Shown: positions 1 through 20,076 of the stretch, in pieces
Layout of the letters: every line of letters starts with the position of its first letter
How positions within the stretch are numbered: position 1 is the stretch's first letter
NCBI RefSeq assembly: GCF_003143515.1
Contig: NZ_CP029343.1
Location: 372,001-436,000, forward strand
Direction: 5' to 3'
Source: Massilia oculi
Lineage (GTDB): Bacteria; Pseudomonadota; Gammaproteobacteria; Burkholderiales; Burkholderiaceae_D
DNA: 64,000 nt
Program-made: the position numbers and the translations under genes
The notes under the pieces: model-generated
Told to the model about the DNA's origin: nothing
The model's input: only the letters and a program-made list of their open reading frames with translations
The model's database searches: none

Positions 1-224
1 CGCAGGGACAGCACGACCAGTTCCTGGGCTGCGCTCAGGGTCGTATGCAGGGTGTGAGCACGATGCGAGCGGTCTTGCACATCGTCCCGCTTGAGCCATT
101 TGGCAGCGGTGGCCCGAGTGATATTGAACACCTTGGCCGCTTGACGGTCGGACAGGCCGGAATCCTTGATCTCCTGACGGATTTTTGGCGTGGTGCGGGC
201 TTGCGGGTGAATGCGTGAACTCAT
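1..224 (-). CDS. IS481-type transposase, N-terminal part (runs off left edge)
   Basis: The ATG is at 224 on the minus strand and the frame stays open to the window edge, giving about 74 residues. The product begins MSSRIHPQARTTPKIRQEI. A helix-turn-helix follows (LSDRQAAKVF, then TRATAAKWLKR) and then the DRSHRAHTLHTTLS segment. This order, a homeodomain-like HTH then a basic D-R-S-x-R-P/A-H-like linker, is characteristic of IS481-family transposases. The DDE integrase core would lie beyond the left edge and cannot be seen. The copy could be complete or partial. Confidence 0.75.
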   Translation of the reverse strand, partial: MSSRIHPQARTTPKIRQEIKDSGLSDRQAAKVFNITRATAAKWLKRDDVQDRSHRAHTLHTTLSAAQELVVLSL

Positions 225-355
225 GCTCGATATGGTGATGTTCTGCGAGGGGCTGACGAACGATGCGGGAAGCCAGCAATTATCTCATCGAGCACGTCCT
301 TTGCACGGAACAAGGCCATGCTGCGTCGGGGAACATGATCACACGAAACTAAACA
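1..355 (-). mobile_element. Right-hand end of an IS481-like insertion sequence (boundary approximate)
   Basis: The transposase reads leftward, so its 5' terminus lies to the right of 224. A candidate terminus is at 355: read on the minus strand the DNA there begins TGTTTAGTTTCGTG, and 5'-TGT is the usual start of IS481-family inverted repeats. The stop codon of the neighbouring primase-like gene (349-351) falls inside this putative terminus. The partner inverted repeat is outside the window, so the boundary is inferred. Confidence 0.4.
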
Positions 356-1053
356 TGTACGCTCTCCTCAAATGGTATCGAACAGAACGCTTCTGTCACA
401 CCATTTGCCCGTGTCACTGGATGATCAGGAGAAATGTCCACGTCGGAACGGCGCACAACATTCGGGTAATTCTTCTTTCCGTTTGTGCTACTTTTATCCG
501 GTACAGATGCAGGATCGTGTCCAAGTTTAATGAGCTGGTCTAGCTGGTCATTCGACAACACGTTGCCAAGCATAATCGGGTCGCTACCCTGTGACCCATA
601 AAACGCGCGACACGCGTCCTTACAAGTCTTGTCCCCACCGAACTTGCGAATCAGCCCTTGATAGGCAGCAGTCATCTGGGTCGGATCGGTAATAGTTCGC
701 TCGGTTTGGAATACAATCCGAAAGCGGTGGTGCGATTCAGTGTGTGATGGAGTCCGATAAACGAAACCTCCGTATTGCTTGACAAAATCGTTGTTCAGGG
801 CGTCAGACATCTTCATGCCACCGTCGATGTCGACCGCTAGTACATCTGAACATATGAAGTTCTCATCCTTACGACTAATTCGGTGTTGTGCACAGAACGG
901 GTGGCCATCGTTCACAATGGAGGCTAATTCCGCCAATGTCACCGATACGTTTTCGCATTTTCGGGTGAGAGTTCCAAATAATTTAAGGTCTCCCTTTTCG
1001 ATTTTATCTCTGATCAGCCAGTTTACGGCAACTTTAAGTAATTTTGTAGACAT
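349..1053 (-). CDS. Primase-polymerase (AEP-like) replication protein, probably C-terminally truncated
   Basis: The ATG is at 1053 and the product is 234 residues. Residues ~70-78 (SDVLAVDIDGG) give a DxD metal-binding motif. Residues ~96-115 (GFVYRTPSH, then SHHRFRIVF) resemble the second conserved block of archaeo-eukaryotic primase-like proteins from plasmids and phages. DKTCKDACRAFYGS at ~141-154 matches the third block (D-x-C-x-D-x-x-R-x-F-Y-G). Such proteins normally have a PriCT or helicase part after this, but here the frame stops about 80 residues later, within a few bases of the candidate IS481 end. Truncation by the IS is inferred. Its likely role was replication initiation or priming for the integrated element. 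Family call from motifs only. Confidence 0.5.
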   Translation of the reverse strand: MSTKLLKVAVNWLIRDKIEKGDLKLFGTLTRKCENVSVTLAELASIVNDGHPFCAQHRISRKDENFICSDVLAVDIDGGMKMSDALNNDFVKQYGGFVYRTPSHTESHHRFRIVFQTERTITDPTQMTAAYQGLIRKFGGDKTCKDACRAFYGSQGSDPIMLGNVLSNDQLDQLIKLGHDPASVPDKSSTNGKKNYPNVVRRSDVDISPDHPVTRANGVTEAFCSIPFEESVHV

Positions 1054-1140
1054 TTTATTTTAGTTTTTTTCGCAAGATTGTTTATTGATCACTATTTTAC
1101 GATTCAATCGGGTCTATCTTATCTAGCACGATTTCTTTGG

Positions 1141-1173
1141 GCTATGCGGATGGACAGCCGCTTTCCGCATAGC
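1141..1173. repeat. Inverted repeat between the two primase-like genes
   Basis: GCTATGCGGA at 1141-1150 is matched by its exact reverse complement TCCGCATAGC at 1164-1173, with a 13-nt loop. It lies in the 175-nt gap between two leftward genes. On the plus strand it is followed by a T-rich stretch, but no leftward U-tract follows. It could be a terminator, an operator or part of an element origin; the sequence does not decide. Confidence 0.5.
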
Positions 1174-1228
1174 TCTTGCCTTTAAATTTTTGTTTGTGTT
1201 TTCAGCCACCTGCGCGAGTCATGGGACT

Positions 1229-1876
1229 TTAGGTCAACGTAAGAAAACCAGTGTCCTTAAGCTCATCGAGCATCGATTCACACATTATCCACCCTGGCGA
1301 TACGCATTCGACACGCAGCCCAGAATCGCCCTTATGGTAGCTTGGGAGCGTGCAAAAATTTCCAATATCATAGCTGTACGGAAAAGATTCCGGGTGTCTA
1401 CCATCTCCATTTGCCCATTTTTGAATCGAAGGCGCGAGTTCCAAAAATTTCCTAACTGAAATCGGCTTGAGTAACGGGAAGACAATACGAAACACTTCCC
1501 GTTCGAACCTCGGGTCCAGCGCCGTGTAACTCGCGTGTTCGAGATCGGCAAACTGAGGAGCCAATTCAGTTATATTAAATCTTTCCGGAAAATCAATCAC
1601 AAGTAACGAAGACTTGTTTGTGCGCTTGCGCGACGTAATTTCAGGCCATGCACAATAGCCGTGCGGAAAAATGTCATCTGTATCAACTCCATTATTAACT
1701 GATAGCAATACCAGGAAGGTGCCCCAGTCAGTATTTATTTTGCGATGGCCCTCATAGCAATCCTCACAAAATAGAGCGTCAATTGGGAGTGAACTGTAGT
1801 ATTTGCTAATGCTCGCGTTAAAGTGATTAGGAGGAATATAAAGGGAGTGGTGAGGCACAGAACGGTTCTTCTTCAT
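1229..1876 (-). CDS. Divergent primase-polymerase-like protein, catalytic motifs degenerate
   Basis: The product from ATG 1876 is 215 residues (a TTG four codons upstream is possible). FEREVFRIVFPLLKPIS at ~124-140 parallels the SHHRFRIVF block of the neighbouring gene. SYDIGNFCTLPSYHKGD at ~168-184 resembles the block in AEP-like primases where the fold ends in a Y-L-P-S-like motif. The acidic block reads LLVIDFPERF, with one Asp where DxD is expected, and the basic block lacks the conserved His. It may therefore be a catalytically dead partner of the gene at 349-1053. Both genes lie on the same strand, 175 nt apart. Assignment rests on motif resemblance only. Confidence 0.35.
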   Translation of the reverse strand: MKKNRSVPHHSLYIPPNHFNASISKYYSSLPIDALFCEDCYEGHRKINTDWGTFLVLLSVNNGVDTDDIFPHGYCAWPEITSRKRTNKSSLLVIDFPERFNITELAPQFADLEHASYTALDPRFEREVFRIVFPLLKPISVRKFLELAPSIQKWANGDGRHPESFPYSYDIGNFCTLPSYHKGDSGLRVECVSPGWIMCESMLDELKDTGFLTLT

Positions 1877-2470
1877 GTTGAATTTCAAATATAAATGTTA
1901 ATTTAAATGTGAAATTCTTTCGGCGCCCAATGCGCAGCTCGGCTCCGAACGAAATAAAGTCGAACGGAATCAAGATGGTCGTGCGGATTGATGGAGGCAG
2001 AACGCCTGCGATAACGGAAAGAGAAAACGGCAAAGGTGCCGTTAGACTGACTCTGACAGATTTGCAGGCGAACCCCAACATCCGATATACCGGATGAAAG
2101 AATTTCAAGCCTGCCCCTTCCATCATGCTAGGTGATGGTGCCGCTCTCTGACGGCCGTGTTACCCACGAGGCGCGGATATTTCCGCAAAATCTGGCAGCG
2201 TAGCTGGGTTGAAGCACTGAACGCTTAGGACAGAATAGCCGAGCCAGTTTACTGACGTCAATAGCTCAGCAAAAAATTCAAGTTTCTTTCAGGAAACATC
2301 GAGCATTCTCTGGCAGATCTGCCGGCCGTCCAGCGCACCTATTGGTCGGAGACAACGGGCGTCTCTGTCAGTAGTACACAGACCCATCGAGTTGTCCCCA
2401 CGGACTAGCAGAAGCCTTCCTTTGACCCGCTCTTACCTCTGCACATAAATAGCTACAGCCAGAACAACTT
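1877..2470. other. Gap without a convincing gene
   Basis: This ~590-nt stretch separates the leftward primase-like genes from the rightward DnaB-like relic. A 62-codon GTG-started frame (1909-2097) has no recognisable content. A small perfect hairpin, GCGGA-TATT-TCCGC, is at 2173-2186. As a divergent intergenic region beside replication genes it is a plausible place for promoters or an origin, but no iterons were found. Confidence 0.4.
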
Positions 2471-3451
2471 TTGCCCTCTGGCGGCGAAACGAGAACACAC
2501 TTGAACAATACATATATCAGTCCGGTGGCTAGCGACCCCAAACCTAACCTGACCCAATCGACTGCACAGGCAGAGACCCCGAATATTTGCACATATGCTA
2601 ACGGATGGCTGTCGAACTGGCTTCCAAAGACAGTATGCCTGAGCGGAGATTCGCTCGACAGCCCGCATCAGAATTTCGAGGCTGCCCAGGACTATGTGAT
2701 CCATGGCACGTCACCGATCGACGAGGGCATGCTCGCCATTACGCTCGCAGAAAAATTTGCACGCGCCGGCGGGCACGTCATCTGGGTCGGAACGACGTCG
2801 GATCTGTATCGCATGTCGGACGAGCTCTTGTTCAAAATTGCCGGGCTCGAACTTCCTACCGAGGGCACAGAGGTTCAATTCGACGTGATCAAGTACCTTG
2901 ACCTGATGGATGCACGCGCCGAAATGATGAACATGTGGATTGATTTCTGCAACGTCGAAGACTGTGGGGACATGGCTGTTGAGCAAGACTTTGTGGCGTC
3001 GATGTCTTCCTTCAAGCCAACATTGATCGTGGTGGCTTCGTCGATCTTCGACGATCAGACACTAGACGCATTTGAGTTCTTGATTCGCAACACGTCCGGT
3101 CTGCAAATGGTGAAGCACTTACGTGAAACGAATCCGATCTGCAATATTTTGTGGCCGTCGTCGGTCGCAAATAGTACGCTGACTACCTTGCCGAATTTGC
3201 ACGATACTCAGTAAGACCTGCTGGACCGGGTCGTCAGCCGCTTAGGTCGGATTTCCGTTCGGCCTGACCTTGCCTTACTCTACTTTGACGACCGTGATCC
3301 CATGGGCGTTCCTGGTCATGCCTTGATGCTGGTACACAAGACGGAGGCGGAAGCTGGGTGGCCAAGTTTGAGTCGTGACCAGGCTCGGCCGCTGGCATGT
3401 CTGTACCACTTGGGGGCTTTCATCCGCCTCGTATCCCAAGTTCAACCGTGA
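2471..3451 (+). pseudogene. DnaB/RecA-fold helicase-like protein lacking a P-loop, interrupted by an in-frame TAA
   Basis: One frame runs from a TTG at 2471 to TGA at 3449-3451, broken only by TAA at 3212-3214. The first part ends at residue 247. Residues ~79-130 (HGTSPIDEGMLAITLAEKF, then HVIWVGTTSDLYRMSDELL) line up with the DnaB region holding Walker A and the following strand, but GxxGxGKT is replaced by GTSPIDEG. LIVVASSIF stands at the Walker B strand. After the stop, RPDLALLYFDDRDP and HALMLVHKTEAEAG resemble the C-terminal DnaB segment. The 3' end overlaps the convergent recombinase by 32 nt. The upstream start is uncertain. It is either a dead helicase or a non-ATPase relative that later acquired a stop. 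Confidence 0.4.
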
Positions 3452-5231
3452 CCTGCGTCGGATCATCAAAATTCGGATGCACGACACGGAAGCCCCCGTT
3501 CTTTGCCTTGATCGTAAAGTAGCGTCCTGTATCCTTCCGGGTGACGTAGCGACCGCGAACGCCTCGCCCTGTACGTTTAGGTTCTGTACGCATGTGTTCG
3601 CTGATGTAGGCCTCGACTCGCGCCGCAGAGAATCCACTCTCCACTAACCCGGCACGCAAAGCCTCGATCTCCTCTGGTGACGTAAGTGTCCCTGCTGGGA
3701 AGACACGAACTATCTCGATCAAATGCCGGATGTGCTCGGAGATCTTTGCCCGGACCATGAACAGTGTATCGCCACTGAGTCCGTCGAGCTTCTCAAGCGT
3801 GGCGCGAACTGTTTCAACTTCATCCGTACGACGCTTCGCTGATAGCTGGACCGTAAGAAGCTCATCCTCAAGCTGCGTCTTCGAGCTGTTCATTATTCCA
3901 ACTTCGTGCTCCAGTTCACGAATGCGCTTAATCACCGCCGCTGGCGCGTCGCCGAGTTCAAGCGCATCCATCAGACGTGCGAGCCGAGTACTCGCTTCAT
4001 TGATGGCGGACTCAACAGATTGGAGTCGTCCGACCAGCGAAAGTTGCCGATCTTGCTCTCCCTCTACAGCGTCCACGTCAAACAATATTTCCTTCAACTG
4101 TATGGTCCGGCAGAACGTCAGGAAACTGCTCTCGAAATCTTTATAGGGCCATTGGACCGCGAAGCATCCTAGCCCACGGCGAGCGCCATCACACACCAAG
4201 ACCTTCTTACCCGGCCTCGTTACATTATTGCCATCTGCGGACCTTGTTCGCTGCGCCGAGCCGCCAGCCAAAATCATCGTACTCCCGCAATAGCCGCACT
4301 TGATTAGCCCACTTAACAAGTTCGGTACCTCTGTTCCTTTCCTTGCCCTTGCGCCACTAAAAAGCCGCTCCTTCCGAAGATTCTGTAGGTAGAAAAATTC
4401 TTCTTTCGTGATCAATGCAGGGTAGTAGTCAGGTACAGGCGCACCATGGGGTGCGAGCTTCCCACTGTTCCAAAGCTGAGGCTGAAACTCGCCGTACAGT
4501 GCTGTATTGGTGATGATTTTGTTAATGTACGACGGATACCAGCCCTTCCCATGCGAAGAAACCGGTGGCAGCGAACGTTCATTCAACCGCTTGGCAATAA
4601 GCGCCTGCCCCATCCCTGACTTGACCATGTCGATGATTTCCATGACCAGCTCGACACGCTCAGGGATGAGTATGAACTCGGTCTTGTTCGGACTAAGTTC
4701 CATCCAAGCTGGACATCGAGCTGTCAATTTTTTCTCATCGATTCGGGCACGCTTGGCTTCCCATGCAGCAGACACGCGACGACTCTTCATCGCCGACTCT
4801 TCGTGAGCGCGCGCCATGATTGTGATCGAGATGATCAAGCTGGAAAAGTTGTTCCCGACCGATTCTGCGCTGTACACCATGTTGTCGGCCAGCGTGACAA
4901 CCGTAACGCCTTGGCGCAAAATCTAGATGAAAATCTCAAGCGCGGCCAGCACTTTGTCACGGGACAAACGGTCAAGCGATTCGACCAACAAGAAGGACCC
5001 ATGGGCAATCCGGCCACGCTTTACTGCTTCGAGAAACCCACCAAGTGCGCCACGATCGATGTTTGAACGATCAAACGCCGAAAGACCCAAGTCGTGAAGG
5101 TGGAGAGATGTGTCAAGCGTCAAGCCGTGCGCCGAAGCGTACCGTTCTGATAGCTCGGTCTGCCTTCGAAGCGAGTCCCCCTTCTGCTGCTCGGAAGTGG
5201 AAAAGCGGATGTAGCTGTAAGCGACGGGCAA
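3420..5231 (-). pseudogene. Large serine recombinase (site-specific integrase) with an in-frame amber stop
   Basis: The minus-strand frame is continuous from ~5231 to 3420 apart from TAG at 4923-4925. The N-terminal part has AYSYIRFSTSEQQKGDSLRRQ-type sequence containing the catalytic Ser (YIRFSTSEQQ), then ESLDRLSRDKVLAALEIFI just before the stop. It resumes with ILRQGVTVVTLADNMVYS, as expected of the resolvase domain. The recombinase domain follows (GKGWYPSYINKIITNTALYG) and a zinc ribbon (LIKCGYCGSTM, then VCDGARRGLGC), then a coiled-coil-rich C-terminus. About 600 residues in total, typical for the family. The start is taken as the TTG at 5231, just before the conserved PVAYSYIRFS; no clear Shine-Dalgarno was seen. 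The att-like repeat lies ~50 bp upstream, the usual position for an integrase. A single nonsense substitution is the simplest explanation. Confidence 0.8.
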
Positions 5232-5281
5232 GGTGGCAATCCAATATTGATGCAGTGCAACAATTATACACCTGATTTTCG

Positions 5282-5304
5282 TGTATTCATAGACCCAATA
5301 TCGA
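5282..5304. repeat. att-like 23-bp direct repeat, left copy
   Basis: The 23 bases starting TGTATTCATAG and ending CCAATATCGA are identical to 8831-8853. The flanking bases on both sides differ between the copies. This copy lies ~50 bp upstream of the recombinase start. It is best read as the right end of the left-hand element fused to the left end of the inner element. Confidence 0.8.
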
Positions 5305-5384
5305 AATGACTTACCAGCAGCAAATGTGAAGAAATCCCACAATGCGGAATACAACCTTCACGTCCCGGACACCGTTGCCAACGG

Positions 5385-6752
5385 TCAACGCTTGAATACC
5401 GATTGCTCGTGATATCGAAGGAACTCGATTTGATCTGAATTAAACGTTCCTACATACTTCACCTCCGGAATCCCCCATTTGGCTAAAATCATTTGATCGA
5501 GTTGCTTTGAGATCAGCAACCTACCATCGGAAGAGAACGAGATAAGTCCCCTGTCGAAGAGATGATCGATGTGGGGAGCAAGCAGTAGCCCGTTACAACC
5601 GTTCAACTTCTCGTCGTCGCTACTATCCTTCCATGGCTTAATGTGGCTAGCGCGTAAGTGAAGCGGATCGGTCACGCCAGTAATTCGACACCCTTTCTCA
5701 TTGAGCCGGACATTCGCTTTGAACACCCCTTGGCCCCGCCGCGCATTCACAAGTTGCGTCTTAGTGGTAGCACCAATGTCTGTTCGCCCCCGAATTGCTT
5801 CCTCTTGCTGATCTGCAGCAATCTCGCTCTCATCAAGCTCACCTTGAAGCGCCTTTAAGGTTAAGGTGAATTCTTTTCCAATCAGTGTCGCCAGAACGTC
5901 CGCCATCGACGCTGGAACAGCTGCCAAATACACCGACTGTAGTCCGTCGCCCGACTCTTGCAGCGGTGAGTATTTGGCAGGGAGATGGGCACGAATCGCT
6001 TCAATATGATCCTTCGGGCGAATCTGCGAATGGAGTTCTTTGAACTCGACAGGAACAAGCCATCCGTCCTTAGCCCAGCTCGCTCCCGCGTCGCCGAAAT
6101 CTGGCTTAGTCGATGTCTCAGCTTTGCCAATTGCCACTCCAATTGCTTTGATGCGTGTATCGCAGAACGAGAAGACGACATCGCCAATGTTGACATCCAT
6201 CATGTTGTCATAAAACTGATTTCGAACGCCATCCGCTCTTGTCTTTGGCGACCATAGAAACCCACCCGGCACCTCGGTCTTGTACGTCTGATTTTGGTTG
6301 ACCCACCAGTAGCGGCGGTTTGTAGATTGAAGCAACGTCCGCAAGCTCTTCGTGGAAACAACGTCAATGCCGCTCACGGCATCACTCCGTACTTCCTGTT
6401 TGGCGTGCACTGAGAGAGGATTACTCGCGTTGAGCTGATATGGCTTGAATGCATAGTTCGACTTATGCAGTAGCATCTCTGCTCTTGAAATCAGGATCTC
6501 ATCAAAATAGGCTCGCCACTTCGTTTCAACGACAAGCGCTTCTACGGTTAGGTCCAGACGGCCATGTTTCCAAAGGTCCGCGAACCCATCTGATGGAGTT
6601 TTTTTGCTCAACAGCTTGCGCGCTGTCGCATAACCGCCGTCGGCACTTAACATACCGAGAAACGCAGTTGCCGGAAATCCAAGGTCTCGCTTTGCCTCAG
6701 CAGCTTTGCTACGTAGGAAATTAGTAAACTCTTGGTCCTCTTGCTTATTCAA
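5385..6752 (-). CDS. EVE-domain HNH endonuclease, probable type IV (modification-dependent) restriction enzyme
   Basis: The start is TTG at 6752, supported by AGAGGAAAG a few bases upstream; 455 residues. The N-terminal ~110 residues (GGYATARKLL, then GRLDLTVEALVVETKWR) are a domain often found in front of restriction HNH nucleases. Residues ~145-290 look like an EVE/PUA-type module (RYWWVNQNQTYKTEVPGGFL, then NIGDVVFSFCDTRIKAIGVA), a fold that binds modified bases in known EVE-HNH enzymes. The C-terminus is an HNH domain of the HNH_2 type: LRASHIKPWKDS, NGCNGLLLAPHIDHLFDRG, with His, Asn and His in place. The gene is separated from the upstream operon by 193 nt and has its own good ribosome site. 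Cutting of phage or plasmid DNA carrying modified cytosine is the expected role; the target is inference. Confidence 0.8.
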   Translation of the reverse strand: MNKQEDQEFTNFLRSKAAEAKRDLGFPATAFLGMLSADGGYATARKLLSKKTPSDGFADLWKHGRLDLTVEALVVETKWRAYFDEILISRAEMLLHKSNYAFKPYQLNASNPLSVHAKQEVRSDAVSGIDVVSTKSLRTLLQSTNRRYWWVNQNQTYKTEVPGGFLWSPKTRADGVRNQFYDNMMDVNIGDVVFSFCDTRIKAIGVAIGKAETSTKPDFGDAGASWAKDGWLVPVEFKELHSQIRPKDHIEAIRAHLPAKYSPLQESGDGLQSVYLAAVPASMADVLATLIGKEFTLTLKALQGELDESEIAADQQEEAIRGRTDIGATTKTQLVNARRGQGVFKANVRLNEKGCRITGVTDPLHLRASHIKPWKDSSDDEKLNGCNGLLLAPHIDHLFDRGLISFSSDGRLLISKQLDQMILAKWGIPEVKYVGTFNSDQIEFLRYHEQSVFKR

Positions 6753-6945
6753 AATTCTTTCCTCTGGCTTTAATTAGCGGTGCGCACCTAAAGACGTCAA
6801 AATCCTTACCAAGTAGGTTATTGTACCTATGTATTCACCCAGCCTCGCCTTCTTAATATGAAACAATATCCGATACCGTCTAGAGTAAAGTTGCCGAAGA
6901 TTTGCTTAATAGCGACAGCAAACAGACATTTCGGCAAACCTATAG

Positions 6946-7407
6946 CTATACCAAGAAACGGGAAAAATTGATTGTTCCACCTTGATGCGTAGGAATTACA
7001 GCCAGAGCCGCAAGATACGCTGCAGTTTGCGAAAACACATCATTTAGATCAAGCAAATGAATATCTGTAGACGACAATTCCGGCTGCCCACGCAAAAGAC
7101 GAGCGAAGCTATCCTGATAGCCGATCCCAGCGATATAGATACATAGCTTTGGCTTAAGACGAAGCAAATCAGAGTGAAGCATCTTTGCCTCATCAACACC
7201 TATTAAATCAGCTGAAAGTTTGCTTTGAAAATGAGCGATTAACACATCTTTGCTATCAGTTATCGCACCGTCAACAGACCCGTCTTTGCCCCGAGGTCCC
7301 GGGATGAACGAGAGATGTGAAGCAAGCCGCTGGCCAATTATTTGCTTTGTAGCATTTGTGCCACCTACGACGCCGTCTACCATATTGTTTATGTGATAGC
7401 TATGCAT
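6946..7407 (-). CDS. Small PD-(D/E)XK (Mrr-like) nuclease-fold protein
   Basis: Start ATG 7407, overlapping the upstream gene by 8 nt, so translation is probably coupled; 153 residues. GQRLASHLSFIPGPRGKDGS followed by VDGAI gives the acidic half, and DVLIAHFQSKLS gives the Q-x-K half of a restriction-endonuclease-like active site of the Mrr type. The segment after it (LLRLKPKLCIYIAGIGYQDS) fits the next strand and helix of that fold. It is the last gene of the ParA-led operon. No separate DNA-binding domain is visible, so specificity may come from its partners. Motif-based call; not matched to a named family. Confidence 0.5.
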   Translation of the reverse strand: MHSYHINNMVDGVVGGTNATKQIIGQRLASHLSFIPGPRGKDGSVDGAITDSKDVLIAHFQSKLSADLIGVDEAKMLHSDLLRLKPKLCIYIAGIGYQDSFARLLRGQPELSSTDIHLLDLNDVFSQTAAYLAALAVIPTHQGGTINFSRFLV

Positions 7408-7852
7408 TTTCGCTGAACTTCTCTAGAAGAAAATGAAAGCCGATATCAATTAACTGCTCCGCTGCGTTCTGTTGACCCACTGCCACAATCGCGAACAAGG
7501 TTTTGCGGGTAGGCTTTACATATAATTGCTCACAGTTCTCCACATCGATATCGAACTTAGACTTGAAAGGACCGAGTCGATGTTTTTTGACAGAATAAAA
7601 TCCGAAACAAATTATTTCATTCCATCCGAAATTTTCTCCGAACATCGCCTGCATCTTCTTCAGCTGTTCAATCTGGCGAAGTTCGACATTGATCGGATAC
7701 CCCTTCTTACGCCCAGCATATTTCTCAACTAGTGACTGCACAGATATATTAAGGTAATAATCGTCCTCATCCAAGGAAGGTCGAGTATCGTTTCGACGCC
7801 TTGGCCCAGGATTTTCAGGCAACTCTACATTAATCAAATTCTTTTGGATCAT
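7400..7852 (-). CDS. Unknown protein, middle gene of the ParA/nuclease operon
   Basis: The ATG at 7852 lies 6 nt after the ParA stop, and the stop codon overlaps the next gene by 8 nt. The 150-residue product is not recognised. It begins with a Pro/Arg/Asp-rich segment (LPENPGPRRRNDTRPSLDED), then has a charged helical middle part (NVELRQIEQLKKMQAMFG) and ends in mixed hydrophobic and charged sequence (LFAIVAVGQQNAAEQLIDIG). No signal peptide, membrane segment or zinc motif is visible. Its fixed place between an ATPase and a nuclease-like protein suggests an adaptor or target-recognition role, which is inference. Confidence 0.7.
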   Translation of the reverse strand: MIQKNLINVELPENPGPRRRNDTRPSLDEDDYYLNISVQSLVEKYAGRKKGYPINVELRQIEQLKKMQAMFGENFGWNEIICFGFYSVKKHRLGPFKSKFDIDVENCEQLYVKPTRKTLFAIVAVGQQNAAEQLIDIGFHFLLEKFSENA

Positions 7853-7858
7853 AACTGT

Positions 7859-8515
7859 CTACCCAAGAGCAATATCGGTATATATTTTACCAATATCGAC
7901 GTTTGTTGGGTAACTCCAGGCGAATTTATAATCAACAAATACTGCGTTACCAAACAATTGTGGATTAATCGGCAAAGCATCGGTGATCTCGACACTACCA
8001 AAAGCTTGACCTAAAGAATCTCTTATACTCTGACCTGATATCCCAATCGGAACTACTTTGACCCGAGCTGTTACCCCAATTGCTGAGAGTCGCTGAATCG
8101 TTTCCAGCACAGTAATCAACTGGGCCAATCCACCAAAGTCATCGTATTTAACAGGTACGAGAATTAGATCAGGCCTCACTTCGCTTATGATGCTGTTTGC
8201 CGTCAATGGATCAGGAGTCGTATCGAACACAAAATGATCAAAGTCCAGCTTCAGTATTTTTGATATACGTTTGCTTAGGTCGAACTTCGTGATCTGTCTT
8301 AGCGGGTGCAACGGAATTATGCCCGAGCCATTATTTAGCATCTCAACTTCATCAGTCGATGGAGGATCCCCAAAGTTGAAAAAGCAATAACTATTTACTT
8401 GTCGGTCTCCGTCAACCAAAAGAACTTTTCCCTGCTGCTGCAATATCCCAGCTACGTGAATGGCAGTCGTTGATTTACCGACACCGCCTTTGAAATGAAT
8501 ACATAAGACTTTCAT
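7859..8515 (-). CDS. ParA/MinD-type ATPase
   Basis: Start ATG 8515, 218 residues. FKGGVGKSTTAIHVAG at residues ~8-23 is a deviant Walker A with the signature lysine. VLLVDGDRQ at ~31-39 is the switch I/A' strand and DHFVFDTTPD at ~113-122 is Walker B. The size fits small ParA (type Ib-like) proteins without an N-terminal DNA-binding domain. It is the first gene of a three-gene operon whose downstream members are not ParB-like, so plasmid-style partition is not the obvious role. Expression probably starts from the AT-rich 8516-8580 region. Confidence 0.85.
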   Translation of the reverse strand: MKVLCIHFKGGVGKSTTAIHVAGILQQQGKVLLVDGDRQVNSYCFFNFGDPPSTDEVEMLNNGSGIIPLHPLRQITKFDLSKRISKILKLDFDHFVFDTTPDPLTANSIISEVRPDLILVPVKYDDFGGLAQLITVLETIQRLSAIGVTARVKVVPIGISGQSIRDSLGQAFGSVEITDALPINPQLFGNAVFVDYKFAWSYPTNVDIGKIYTDIALG

Positions 8516-8830
8516 ATAATTTTTCTATATTCTATATAAATGATTTTTTAAAACCGGAAAGATTCTATCTACAGCCCTAGGCGACACGCAGTTATGTTAG
8601 CAAACAAATGTCGCGTGCACCGCCAGCGTAGCCAAATACTTTTGCATGTCACCAAGCAAAGGTGTTGTTGCCCAATATATCATGTCTGTGGTGCCTCATG
8701 GAAAGACTCAACTTGCGTGCTTCTCATGCCGCTTCAATTTCTTGCTACTGACTAAGGGTCATAGATTGATGTGTACTTGCGTCCGTACCGCTGCCAGAGA
8801 AGTAACGACGATATATGGCAGAGCGGCCGA
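8516..8830. other. Promoter side of the ParA operon and right end of the integrated element
   Basis: About 315 nt without a convincing gene. The part next to the ParA start (8516-8560) is very AT-rich on the coding strand and is the likely promoter region, but no clean -35/-10 pair could be fixed. The remainder reaches the right att-like repeat. A plus-strand frame crossing the repeat (8646-8882) has no recognisable content and spans the element/host junction. Confidence 0.4.
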
Positions 8831-8853
8831 TGTATTCATAGACCCAATATCGA
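8831..8853. repeat. att-like 23-bp direct repeat, right copy, at the comEC junction
   Basis: Identical over 23 bases to 5282-5304. On the minus strand the comEC frame runs GHLVSI into the repeat and meets TGA at 8836-8838. Only the bases around TCGAT can be shared with normal comEC, where S-G-L-H would follow. The crossover therefore probably lies at the 8849-8855 edge of the repeat, and the rest of the 23 bp belongs to the element. Confidence 0.8.
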
Positions 8854-9591
8854 CACCAGGTGACCGATGCCGGTGCGGTTGAAGACGTCCCAGTCGTCCT
8901 GGTCGATGCCGCGCTGGTCGCCGATGACCAGGGCCACGATCACGCCCGCGTATGGCTTGCCTTCGAGGATGGCCAGGATCCGCGTGCGCAGGTAGCCGCG
9001 CGCGCGTTCGATCGCGTAGCCGGCGCCGGGGGTCCAGTCGTCGAGGCGCTCGTTCCGGCTGCCGGCGGGACGCACATAGCCGGTGGCGCGCACCCCCTGC
9101 TCCAGCAGCCAGGCCTCGTAATCGAAGCCGTGCGGATTGGCGTTGCCGTGGGGCCGCTGCAGGCGCACGACCAGGCGCCAGCGTTCGCCGGGATGGATGA
9201 AATCGGGATCGGCAGCGGTGGCGCCGTACCAGGACAGGACGATTTTCGGAGGGACGGTGGCGCCGCGGGTTTCGGTGTGCGCGACGTCGAAGTGGAAGCG
9301 CACGCCGCCATCGAAACGATGCGGCAGGCTGGCGATGGCGCCGGTGACGGTGATGTCGCGGCCTTCGTCCTGATGTGGCAATGCATTGTGCAGGGCCAGG
9401 TGGGCGGTCAAACCTGCCCAGGCGAACCCGAGAAGTGCGCCCGCGCAGATGACGGTCGGCGCGCAGGTTCGCCATCTGCACGCCAGCACCGCGACAAGTG
9501 CGCACGCAAGCAGGTTCGGCGCCGAGGGCAGCGCCGCCTGCAGCTGCATCCAGGCCGCACCGGCTGCAAACGCGAGGATGGCCAGGCGCAT
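8836..9591 (-). pseudogene. comEC: comEC, 5' fragment interrupted by the integrated element
   Basis: Start ATG 9591. The product has an N-terminal membrane segment, then a soluble DUF4131-like/OB part (ITVTGAIASLPHRFDGGVRF, NPHGFDYEAWLLEQGVRATG). It ends TGIGHLVSILGL, where intact ComEC reads GHLVSISGLH and continues into the competence and metallo-beta-lactamase domains. Full-length ComEC is roughly 750-850 residues; only 251 remain. ComEC is the inner-membrane channel for transforming DNA, so natural competence through this gene should be lost. The 3' remainder is not found between 1 and 5282 and is presumably beyond the left edge. Confidence 0.9.
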
Positions 9592-18792: not shown

Positions 18793-20076
18793 TCATTCAT
18801 ACCGCAGCGCCTCGGCCGGCTTGACGCGCGACGCCGCCCAGCTCGGGTAGATCGTGGCCAGGAAGGACAGCAGCACGGCCACGCCGCCGATCCAGCCGAC
18901 GTCGCGCCATAGCAGTTCGGACGGCATCTCGCTGATCAGGTACACCTCTTGCGACAGGAAGTGCACGCCGAGCAGGCGCTCGATGCCAGGGACGATCACG
19001 TCGACGTTCAGCGCCACCAGCACGCCAAGGGCCACGCCGAGCAGGCCGCCCAGCATGCCGACCAGCGTGCCCTGCACGATGAAGATCTTCATGATGCCGC
19101 GCGGCGAAGCGCCCAGGGTGCGCAGGATGGCGATGTCGGCCTGCTTGTCCTTGACCGTCATGACGAGCGTGGAGACCAGGTTGAACGCTGCCACCGCCAC
19201 GATCATGGTCAGGATGATGAACATCATGTTCTTCTGCGACTGCACGGCGGCGAACCACACGGTGTTAACCTTGGTCCAGTCGCGCATGATCAGGTCGCCC
19301 GCCATCGACTGCTGCAGCTCGTAGGCCACGCGCGGCGCCTGCTGCAGGTCGGCCAGGCGCAGGCGCAGGCCGAGCGGCGCCGTGGCCCCGGTCGCGGTCT
19401 CGGCATCACGGATGTTCACCAGCGCCAGCGTGGAATCGAACTCGAAGTGGCCGGCCTCGAAAATGCCCGAGACGGTGAGCGCGCGCGAGCGTGGCAAGAG
19501 ATTTTCGCCGGGCGAGGCGGCGCCACCCAGGATGCCGCTGCTGGCCACCAGCAGCGACACGCGGTCGCCAACTTCCACCCCGAGCGACCTGGCCAGCGCG
19601 CGGCCCAGAATGACGTTAAAGGAACCGGCGCGCAGCGAATCGAGGCTGCCTTCCTTCATCTGTCTTGCGACGTCGGAGACCTTCGCTTCTTCGCTCGGCT
19701 CGACGCCGCGCAGCAGGGCCGGCTTCATGACGCCATCGACCAGCAGCATCGATTGCGCATCGAGGAAAGGCGCGGCGGCGCGCACCTCGGGATGGCGCAG
19801 CGCTTGCGCGCTTGTCGCGCGCCAGTCCGGCAGCGCGCCGCGCGCATCGAAGACCTCGACGTGGGCCAGCATCGACAACATGCGGTTGGTGACTTCCTTC
19901 TGGAAGCCGTTCATCACCGACAGCACCACGATCAGGGCGGCCACGCCGAGGGCGATGCCGGCCACCGAGGCCATCGAGATGAACGAAATAAAACTGTTGC
20001 GGCCGCTGCGCTTGCCGGCGCGGGTATAGCGCAGGCCGATCTGCCATTCGTACGGAAGTTTATGGGTGATGCTCAT
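18793..20076 (-). CDS. LolC/LolE family lipoprotein-releasing permease, first tandem copy
   Basis: The start is ATG 20076 ([20 protein letters not shown]), chosen because it matches the start of the downstream paralogue; 427 residues. The layout is the same: a helix near residues 25-50, a periplasmic domain, a [15 protein letters not shown] coupling segment, and C-terminal helices ending [16 protein letters not shown]. The most visible length difference from its sister is an insertion near residues 185-195 (SSGILGGAASPGENL). First gene of the leftward lol-tatD operon. Confidence 0.93.
   Translation of the reverse strand: MSITHKLPYEWQIGLRYTRAGKRSGRNSFISFISMASVAGIALGVAALIVVLSVMNGFQKEVTNRMLSMLAHVEVFDARGALPDWRATSAQALRHPEVRAAAPFLDAQSMLLVDGVMKPALLRGVEPSEEAKVSDVARQMKEGSLDSLRAGSFNVILGRALARSLGVEVGDRVSLLVASSGILGGAASPGENLLPRSRALTVSGIFEAGHFEFDSTLALVNIRDAETATGATAPLGLRLRLADLQQAPRVAYELQQSMAGDLIMRDWTKVNTVWFAAVQSQKNMMFIILTMIVAVAAFNLVSTLVMTVKDKQADIAILRTLGASPRGIMKIFIVQGTLVGMLGGLLGVALGVLVALNVDVIVPGIERLLGVHFLSQEVYLISEMPSELLWRDVGWIGGVAVLLSFLATIYPSWAASRVKPAEALRYE

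Follow-up and report, generated by a model that had tools for sequence, protein, structure and literature searches.

SCC and pseudo-SCC composite islands involve a serine recombinase, and elements with and without a recombinase are stacked at one chromosomal site; this site lies in rlmH, and the repeat is kept at every border. In integrons, small integrase-less blocks with one recombination site each lie in a fixed orientation beside an integrase gene, the enzyme being a tyrosine integron integrase and the sites folded attC sites. In the accretion of CIMEs and ICEs or IMEs, likewise, an element lacking a recombinase adjoins one that carries it; the two occupy a single attachment site and have att sequences in common, and the composite could move together, according to the accessible text of PMC5704250. 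Furthermore, large serine recombinases (LSRs) are enriched in DNA competence genes, and 12.4% of site-specific LSRs target a magnesium chelatase gene, which we read as comM (Durrant 2022, PMC10083194), while insertion of mobile genetic elements blocks transformation (Croucher 2016, PMC4774983). Those LSR elements invade competence genes as the ones described here do; the accessible portions of both reports mention no recombinase-less modules at an att junction and no comEC site common to several element types.

In the window (the whole stretch of 64,000 nucleotides analysed here, C1:372001-436000 of genome G000), comEC is interrupted by an LSR element and a small recombinase-less block. The initial annotation had proposed that an integrase-bearing element and an integrase-less passenger are stacked at one comEC site, and this is supported, as the arrangement recurs elsewhere with other genes. 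The stacking is like that of SCC islands, but one border half, which we call X, is not conserved, unlike in SCC. Integron cassettes offer an analogy only, the comEC modules being associated instead with an LSR and a 21-bp arm. Compared with CIMEs, the comEC modules hold one to four genes, have no recognised transfer genes and lie inside comEC. Like CIMEs, they are without a recombinase; whereas a CIME keeps attL and attR (PMC5704250, as far as its accessible text goes), each comEC module has one recognisable arm, with no clear att end at X. We thus regard the modules as akin to accretion or CIME-type stacking, departing from it in the single trait of two kept att ends. The covered literature on LSR cassettes, half-sites, accretion and integrase-less passengers, which leaves out most subscription journals, contained no description of such modules.

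The attachment site in comEC and its resident element

The two repeats reported by the initial annotation as identical with differing flanks (the half-sites of Table 1) match at 23 of 23 positions, and their identity begins exactly at the core, with 0 bases shared before it and 23 from TC on. In comEC orientation, each consists of the core dinucleotide TC (GA on the plus strand) and a 21-bp arm. The exact 23-bp sequence has just two copies in the whole genome (5,844,653 bases, 5.84 Mb, one contig), and about 1e-5 such pairs would be expected by chance in 18.9 kb. As had been stated, the right copy sits at the comEC break, where the 5' part of the gene ends; from the left copy, whose other flank is not comEC, it is about 50 bp to the start of the recombinase match.

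The 5' part of comEC has intact counterparts in the congeners G327 (94%) and G268 (92%). The 3' part was matched to the left of the window, at C1:361179-361937, and starts at the same core TC, preceded by the opposite arm (P). The insertion thus spans C1:361932-380853 (18.9 kb). The inner repeat divides it into a 15.4-kb LSR element on the left and a 3,549-bp block that reaches to the outer repeat. When joined at the 2-bp core, the comEC flanks match the intact genes at 97 (G327) and 92 (G268) of 101 positions; the repeat is therefore derived from attP and is not comEC sequence. The two checks suggested by the initial annotation, namely comparison with relatives having intact comEC and extension to the left, recovered the empty site from uninterrupted congeners and, 18.9 kb to the left, the 3' part with the outer att arm. 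The observations named there as speaking against tandem integration, a comEC 3' part at an unrelated junction or a repeat native to comEC, were not made.

The right and left arms of the insertion mirror each other, 19 of 23 positions being symmetric, in the same way that LSR attP sites are pseudo-palindromic (PMC3783163, accessible text). Long inverted attP arms, a short core and a target gene split without loss, as expected of LSR insertion, are all found at this locus. Each repeat is the core plus one 21-bp arm of an LSR attP site, and comEC is the attB of one LSR subgroup. This attB is present with at most 3 mismatches in 41 of 62 genomes of the genus (the host genome counted, among the 21 without it). 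A second left arm (P) was absent from C1:352001-386000, where a search allowing up to 8 mismatches of 25 gave just the three known sites. A third half-site considered between the HNH and ParA genes (around 6829) was rejected, its score of 19 being equalled in 543 of 5000 intergenic shuffles and in 28 of 3198 windows.

Table 1. Features of the window at the comEC insertion (positions of the window)
Feature	Position	Strand	Remarks
Probable N-terminal part of an inserted rve-type transposase	3..224	-	Continues at L005:19142-19999; rve_3 and rve in the L005 part; continuity from ORF lists
DNA primase/replication-like protein	349..1053	-	PHROGs 25531 and 2135 (DNA primase)
Large serine recombinase	3420..5231	-	Resolvase, Recombinase, Zn_ribbon_recom; two frames scanned apart; in-frame TAG at 4920-4922
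Inner half-site P'A + core	5282..5304	.	LSR end of the resident element; flank is X (block end), not comEC
Putative passenger module, recombinase-less, 3,549 bp, four genes	5305..8853	-	No ORF ≥85 aa interrupted at left end X
HNH endonuclease, 455 aa, restriction-like	5385..6752	-	HNH_2 8.7e-12; PADLOC HNH and REase_II models
Protein of 153 aa, function unassigned	6946..7407	-	No Pfam, PADLOC, PHROGs or NCBIfam match
Protein of 150 aa, function unassigned	7400..7852	-	Two proteins found, one own
ParA-family ATPase	7859..8515	-	Pfam AAA_31 9e-15
Outer half-site P'2 + core	8831..8853	.	Joins 3.5-kb block to comEC 5'; best 20/23 identity to other genomes' arms
comEC 5' part, broken at ...GHLVS	8852..9591	-	DUF4131 PF13567 8.6e-39; start of Competence domain PF03772 1.4e-4, just under cut-off

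The serine recombinase placed beside the left repeat by the initial annotation is present, with its resolvase, recombinase and zinc-ribbon domains, but its frame is interrupted: a single in-frame TAG (amber) splits the gene into ORFs 3420-4919 and 4923-5354, and the domains are spread across both. The recombinase of the window is thus not intact; five relatives have open LSR frames. The LSR searches found one LSR locus in this genome. Elsewhere in the resident element, a gene for an rve-type transposase sits between origin-binding-type helicase and primase-like genes (L005:17076-20000 and window 1-1053) and probably splits the replication region. Additionally, L005:10094-15284 encodes an Nmad2 protein, two DNA methyltransferases and a PLD-like protein (under the Pfam cut-off), which possibly represent a restriction-modification set.

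Recombinase-less blocks in four genomes

The ParA of the window's block has 33 relatives, itself included, at E≤0.001 in a database of 5.8 billion proteins; there were none in 391 other genomes of the family at E≤1e-25, none in phages or IMG/VR, and one distant match in plasmids. The sole non-self relative of the 150-aa protein is encoded on a contig of 2,414 bp, and the contig of the best non-self ParA homologue is equally 2,414 bp long; the 150-aa protein is a probable partner of ParA. Neither the window HNH nor the cargo proteins of the G782 and G308 blocks described below had a match in IMG/VR.

Blocks of this kind were found in three further genomes. In Duganella aquatilis (L067; G784:C33), a comEC 5' fragment with TC and arm is followed by a 1.4-kb block, then X, TC and a second arm, and then the LSR. 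The block holds a single TIR-domain gene (PF10137, 1.4e-17), the two half-sites differ (19/22), and comEC 3' has the same core at its start, with the opposite arm next to it; within the stretches read, the main portion of comEC 5' was not found. The order is the same in G782, where comEC 5', TC and arm precede a 2.1-kb block with one gene of 565 aa, followed by X, TC, a second arm and a decayed LSR. In the congener G308, a 1.6-kb block with two genes lies in comEC, with one arm at comEC 5' and X-TC at comEC 3'; by reading, this comEC continues in frame if the core is counted once, and no LSR match was seen in the 19.9 kb read around the module of this one genome. G782 also has a second, open comEC (817 aa) besides the truncated one (L176:12250-14703 and 18820-19641), and 913 bp of the 5' regions of the two copies are 91% identical, as if the second copy had been gained.

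A search for the right-arm (P') motif in 70 genomes, which included G000, G784, G308 and G183 as positive controls, yielded 5 exact matches, each of them a half-site of a comEC insertion. At one mismatch there were 24, two of which are the inner copy of the window and the G782 site, found in this way; with the reversed control pattern, 7 matches were obtained. The regions upstream of 64 LSR loci, the window included, were also scanned for 22-nt repeats (5 of 69 loci were dropped, as their flanks were too short). The window (22/22) and Duganella (19/22) scored at half-sites, L077 reached 19/22 at an apparent coding repeat, and the other 61 loci had at most 18, so that two stacked loci exist among the LSR loci scanned. 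Locus L099, seemingly stacked in comM, was rejected for lack of a visible arm at its LSR. The comEC 5' part was matched in 376 of 392 family genomes, and modules were counted among the matches listed; there are consequently at least four.

The four modules share their architecture. Their borders fall at the same core in the window, Duganella, G782 and G308, and each has an outer arm that agrees with one from another genome at 20 of 23 positions, the range among all nine P' arms being 17-21. Each module has 1-4 ORFs of at least 85 aa, with a coding fraction of 0.79-0.86, and no ORF of this size is cut at X in any of the four, the longest open stretch there being 51 aa; by arithmetic, about 0.001 would be expected for this outcome if X were random, given a coding density of about 83%. 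The cargo is unrelated: HNH, ParA and two orphan proteins in the window, a TIR effector in Duganella, and proteins without family matches in G782 and G308. Module cargo is nuclease- or TIR-type, that is, defence-like, in two of the four cases, and no recombinase family matched the ORFs of the four modules. These results suggest that small gene blocks repeatedly use one comEC insertion site.

The far ends X agree with P arms at 7-11 of 23 positions (959-4428 of 5000 shuffles were equally good) and with B arms at 8-12 of 23 (lowest, 171 of 5000 shuffles, in G782). Thus, the claim of one common half-site at the end of each element is borne out on the comEC 5' side and does not extend to the left end of the block, where X resembles neither arm type clearly.

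Origin of the stacked blocks

Since both borders of the modules lie at the LSR core, an LSR probably cut at both. The explanation that we favour, although we consider it about as apt to be wrong as right, is that the modules would be passengers inserted at comEC by an LSR acting in trans and stacking beside the resident. The module would travel as a small circle with one good attachment arm and the core (X-core-P'), and the LSR of a resident or visiting element would insert it at comEC. The resident reads comEC 3'-core-P ... LSR-P'A, and the module, P'2-cargo-X, would then have been placed before comEC 5', where it could stay when the LSR element leaves. On this account, both the completeness of the gene sets and the state of G308 find a simple explanation, and mobilisation in trans is plausible. 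On the other side, X is unlike the P arm and not clearly a B arm, and because it resembles neither clearly, an X-core-P' circle is not a proper attP. Serine integrases are reported to recombine attP with attB only, other pairings needing a directionality factor (PMC3783163, in its accessible part), and the one-armed module sites do not fit this rule. Furthermore, the window LSR has a stop codon, and among the modules known, at least four, one is without an LSR nearby.

The main rival to insertion of passengers is truncation of older residents, which we find rather unlikely. A later LSR element would have entered X as a pseudo-attB within an older comEC element, whose distal part was then lost between similar left arms; the module would be the stump of that element, and in G308 the later element would since have been excised. 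For the insertion, such a history needs just the permitted attP x attB reaction (PMC3783163) and resembles the published CIME and accretion route (PMC5704250), as both are given in the accessible texts. It is also consistent with the one left arm found when the window locus was scanned, and with the weakly B-like X of the window (11/23, 430 of 5000 shuffles) and of G782 (12/23, 171 of 5000). Members of the wider LSR group lie in comM in both orientations, and one can thus conceive of an older element whose LSR was remote from comEC 5'. On the other side, the unstacked G002, G183 and G593 have the LSR at comEC 5', so four LSR-less stumps are unexpected. ORFs of at least 85 aa are uncut at X in four of four modules, and G308 would require three successive events. 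The presence of two P' arms and one P arm could alternatively mean plain tandem integration, as proposed by the initial annotation, of two complete elements, the second of which was later stripped of recombinase and left arm by an ordinary deletion; tandem integration is described as frequent among integrative mobilizable elements (PMC5704250, accessible text). We consider this improbable, as random deletion is not expected to end right at the core in all four genomes with a module, and the LSR searches of the host genome, with their one locus, recognised no LSR remnant next to P'2. Finally, direct repeats around a 3.5-kb segment look like a transposon with a 23-bp target duplication, or might stem from a slipped repeat or chance, but the repeat coincides with an attP arm and core, the Duganella half-sites differ and enclose unrelated cargo, and no transposase family matched the ORFs of the window's block; an origin of this kind is hardly credible.

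If the modules are indeed passengers, they may form part of a gene-cassette system run by LSRs, in which one-armed, integrase-less circles would insert at the attB of a competence gene, stack beside LSR elements, persist without them and swap unrelated genes. We advance this broader reading tentatively, and lean somewhat against it.

Competence genes as a target

Unstacked relatives have the LSR directly at comEC 5' in G002, G183 and G593, although in G593 the core and arm could not be placed, and three further comEC fragments at an LSR were recognised by eye (L078, L088 and L090). In G002, the comEC 5' piece comprises about 20 codons, and the rest lies 36 kb away behind another insertion. A comM, comF or comEC match ending at most 400 bp upstream was present at 20 of the 68 LSR loci with a placeable N-terminus (18 comM, 1 comF and 1 comEC; L036/L068 and, judging from record length, L108/L125 are the same DNA twice); the remaining 48 had no such match at 400 bp, some having been recognised by eye. 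Relatives of the LSR were found in 18 of 294 family genomes at E≤1e-20, and at E≤1e-60 in 9 of 399 order genomes and 2 of 369 class genomes, the host genome being counted in each. Invasion of competence genes by LSRs is already published, and the counts obtained here agree with the accessible text of PMC10083194 and PMC4774983.

Other insertions were seen in or near comEC. A Tn7-like set (TnsA, TnsB-like, TniB/TnsC and TniQ) adjoins a short comEC fragment upstream of the Duganella LSR site (L143:3053-8803, G784:C33). G002 (L147/L036) and G164 (L145/L146) have insertions of 36-40 kb at almost the same comEC point, and both left ends start TGGTGACCGACATTTAA. In G057 (L150) and G770 (L152), comEC is broken further downstream, at codons VPAQR, and the 20 kb read in either genome contained no LSR match. 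An 899-aa protein encoded by the G183 comEC element (L055:2602 to L037:2301) has weak matches to DNA polymerases (PHROGs 11768 and 1907) and none in Pfam; we take its KxxxNxxYG and TDG stretches to be a family-B-like polymerase motif.

If single-arm modules are mobile, LSRs would support a cassette-like exchange of genes, and this would bear on how serine integrases choose their sites. comEC offers a natural test case, in which passengers, LSR elements and apparently Tn7-like transposons settle close together. As comEC is needed for DNA uptake, this clustering fits the published idea that mobile elements gain by switching off transformation.
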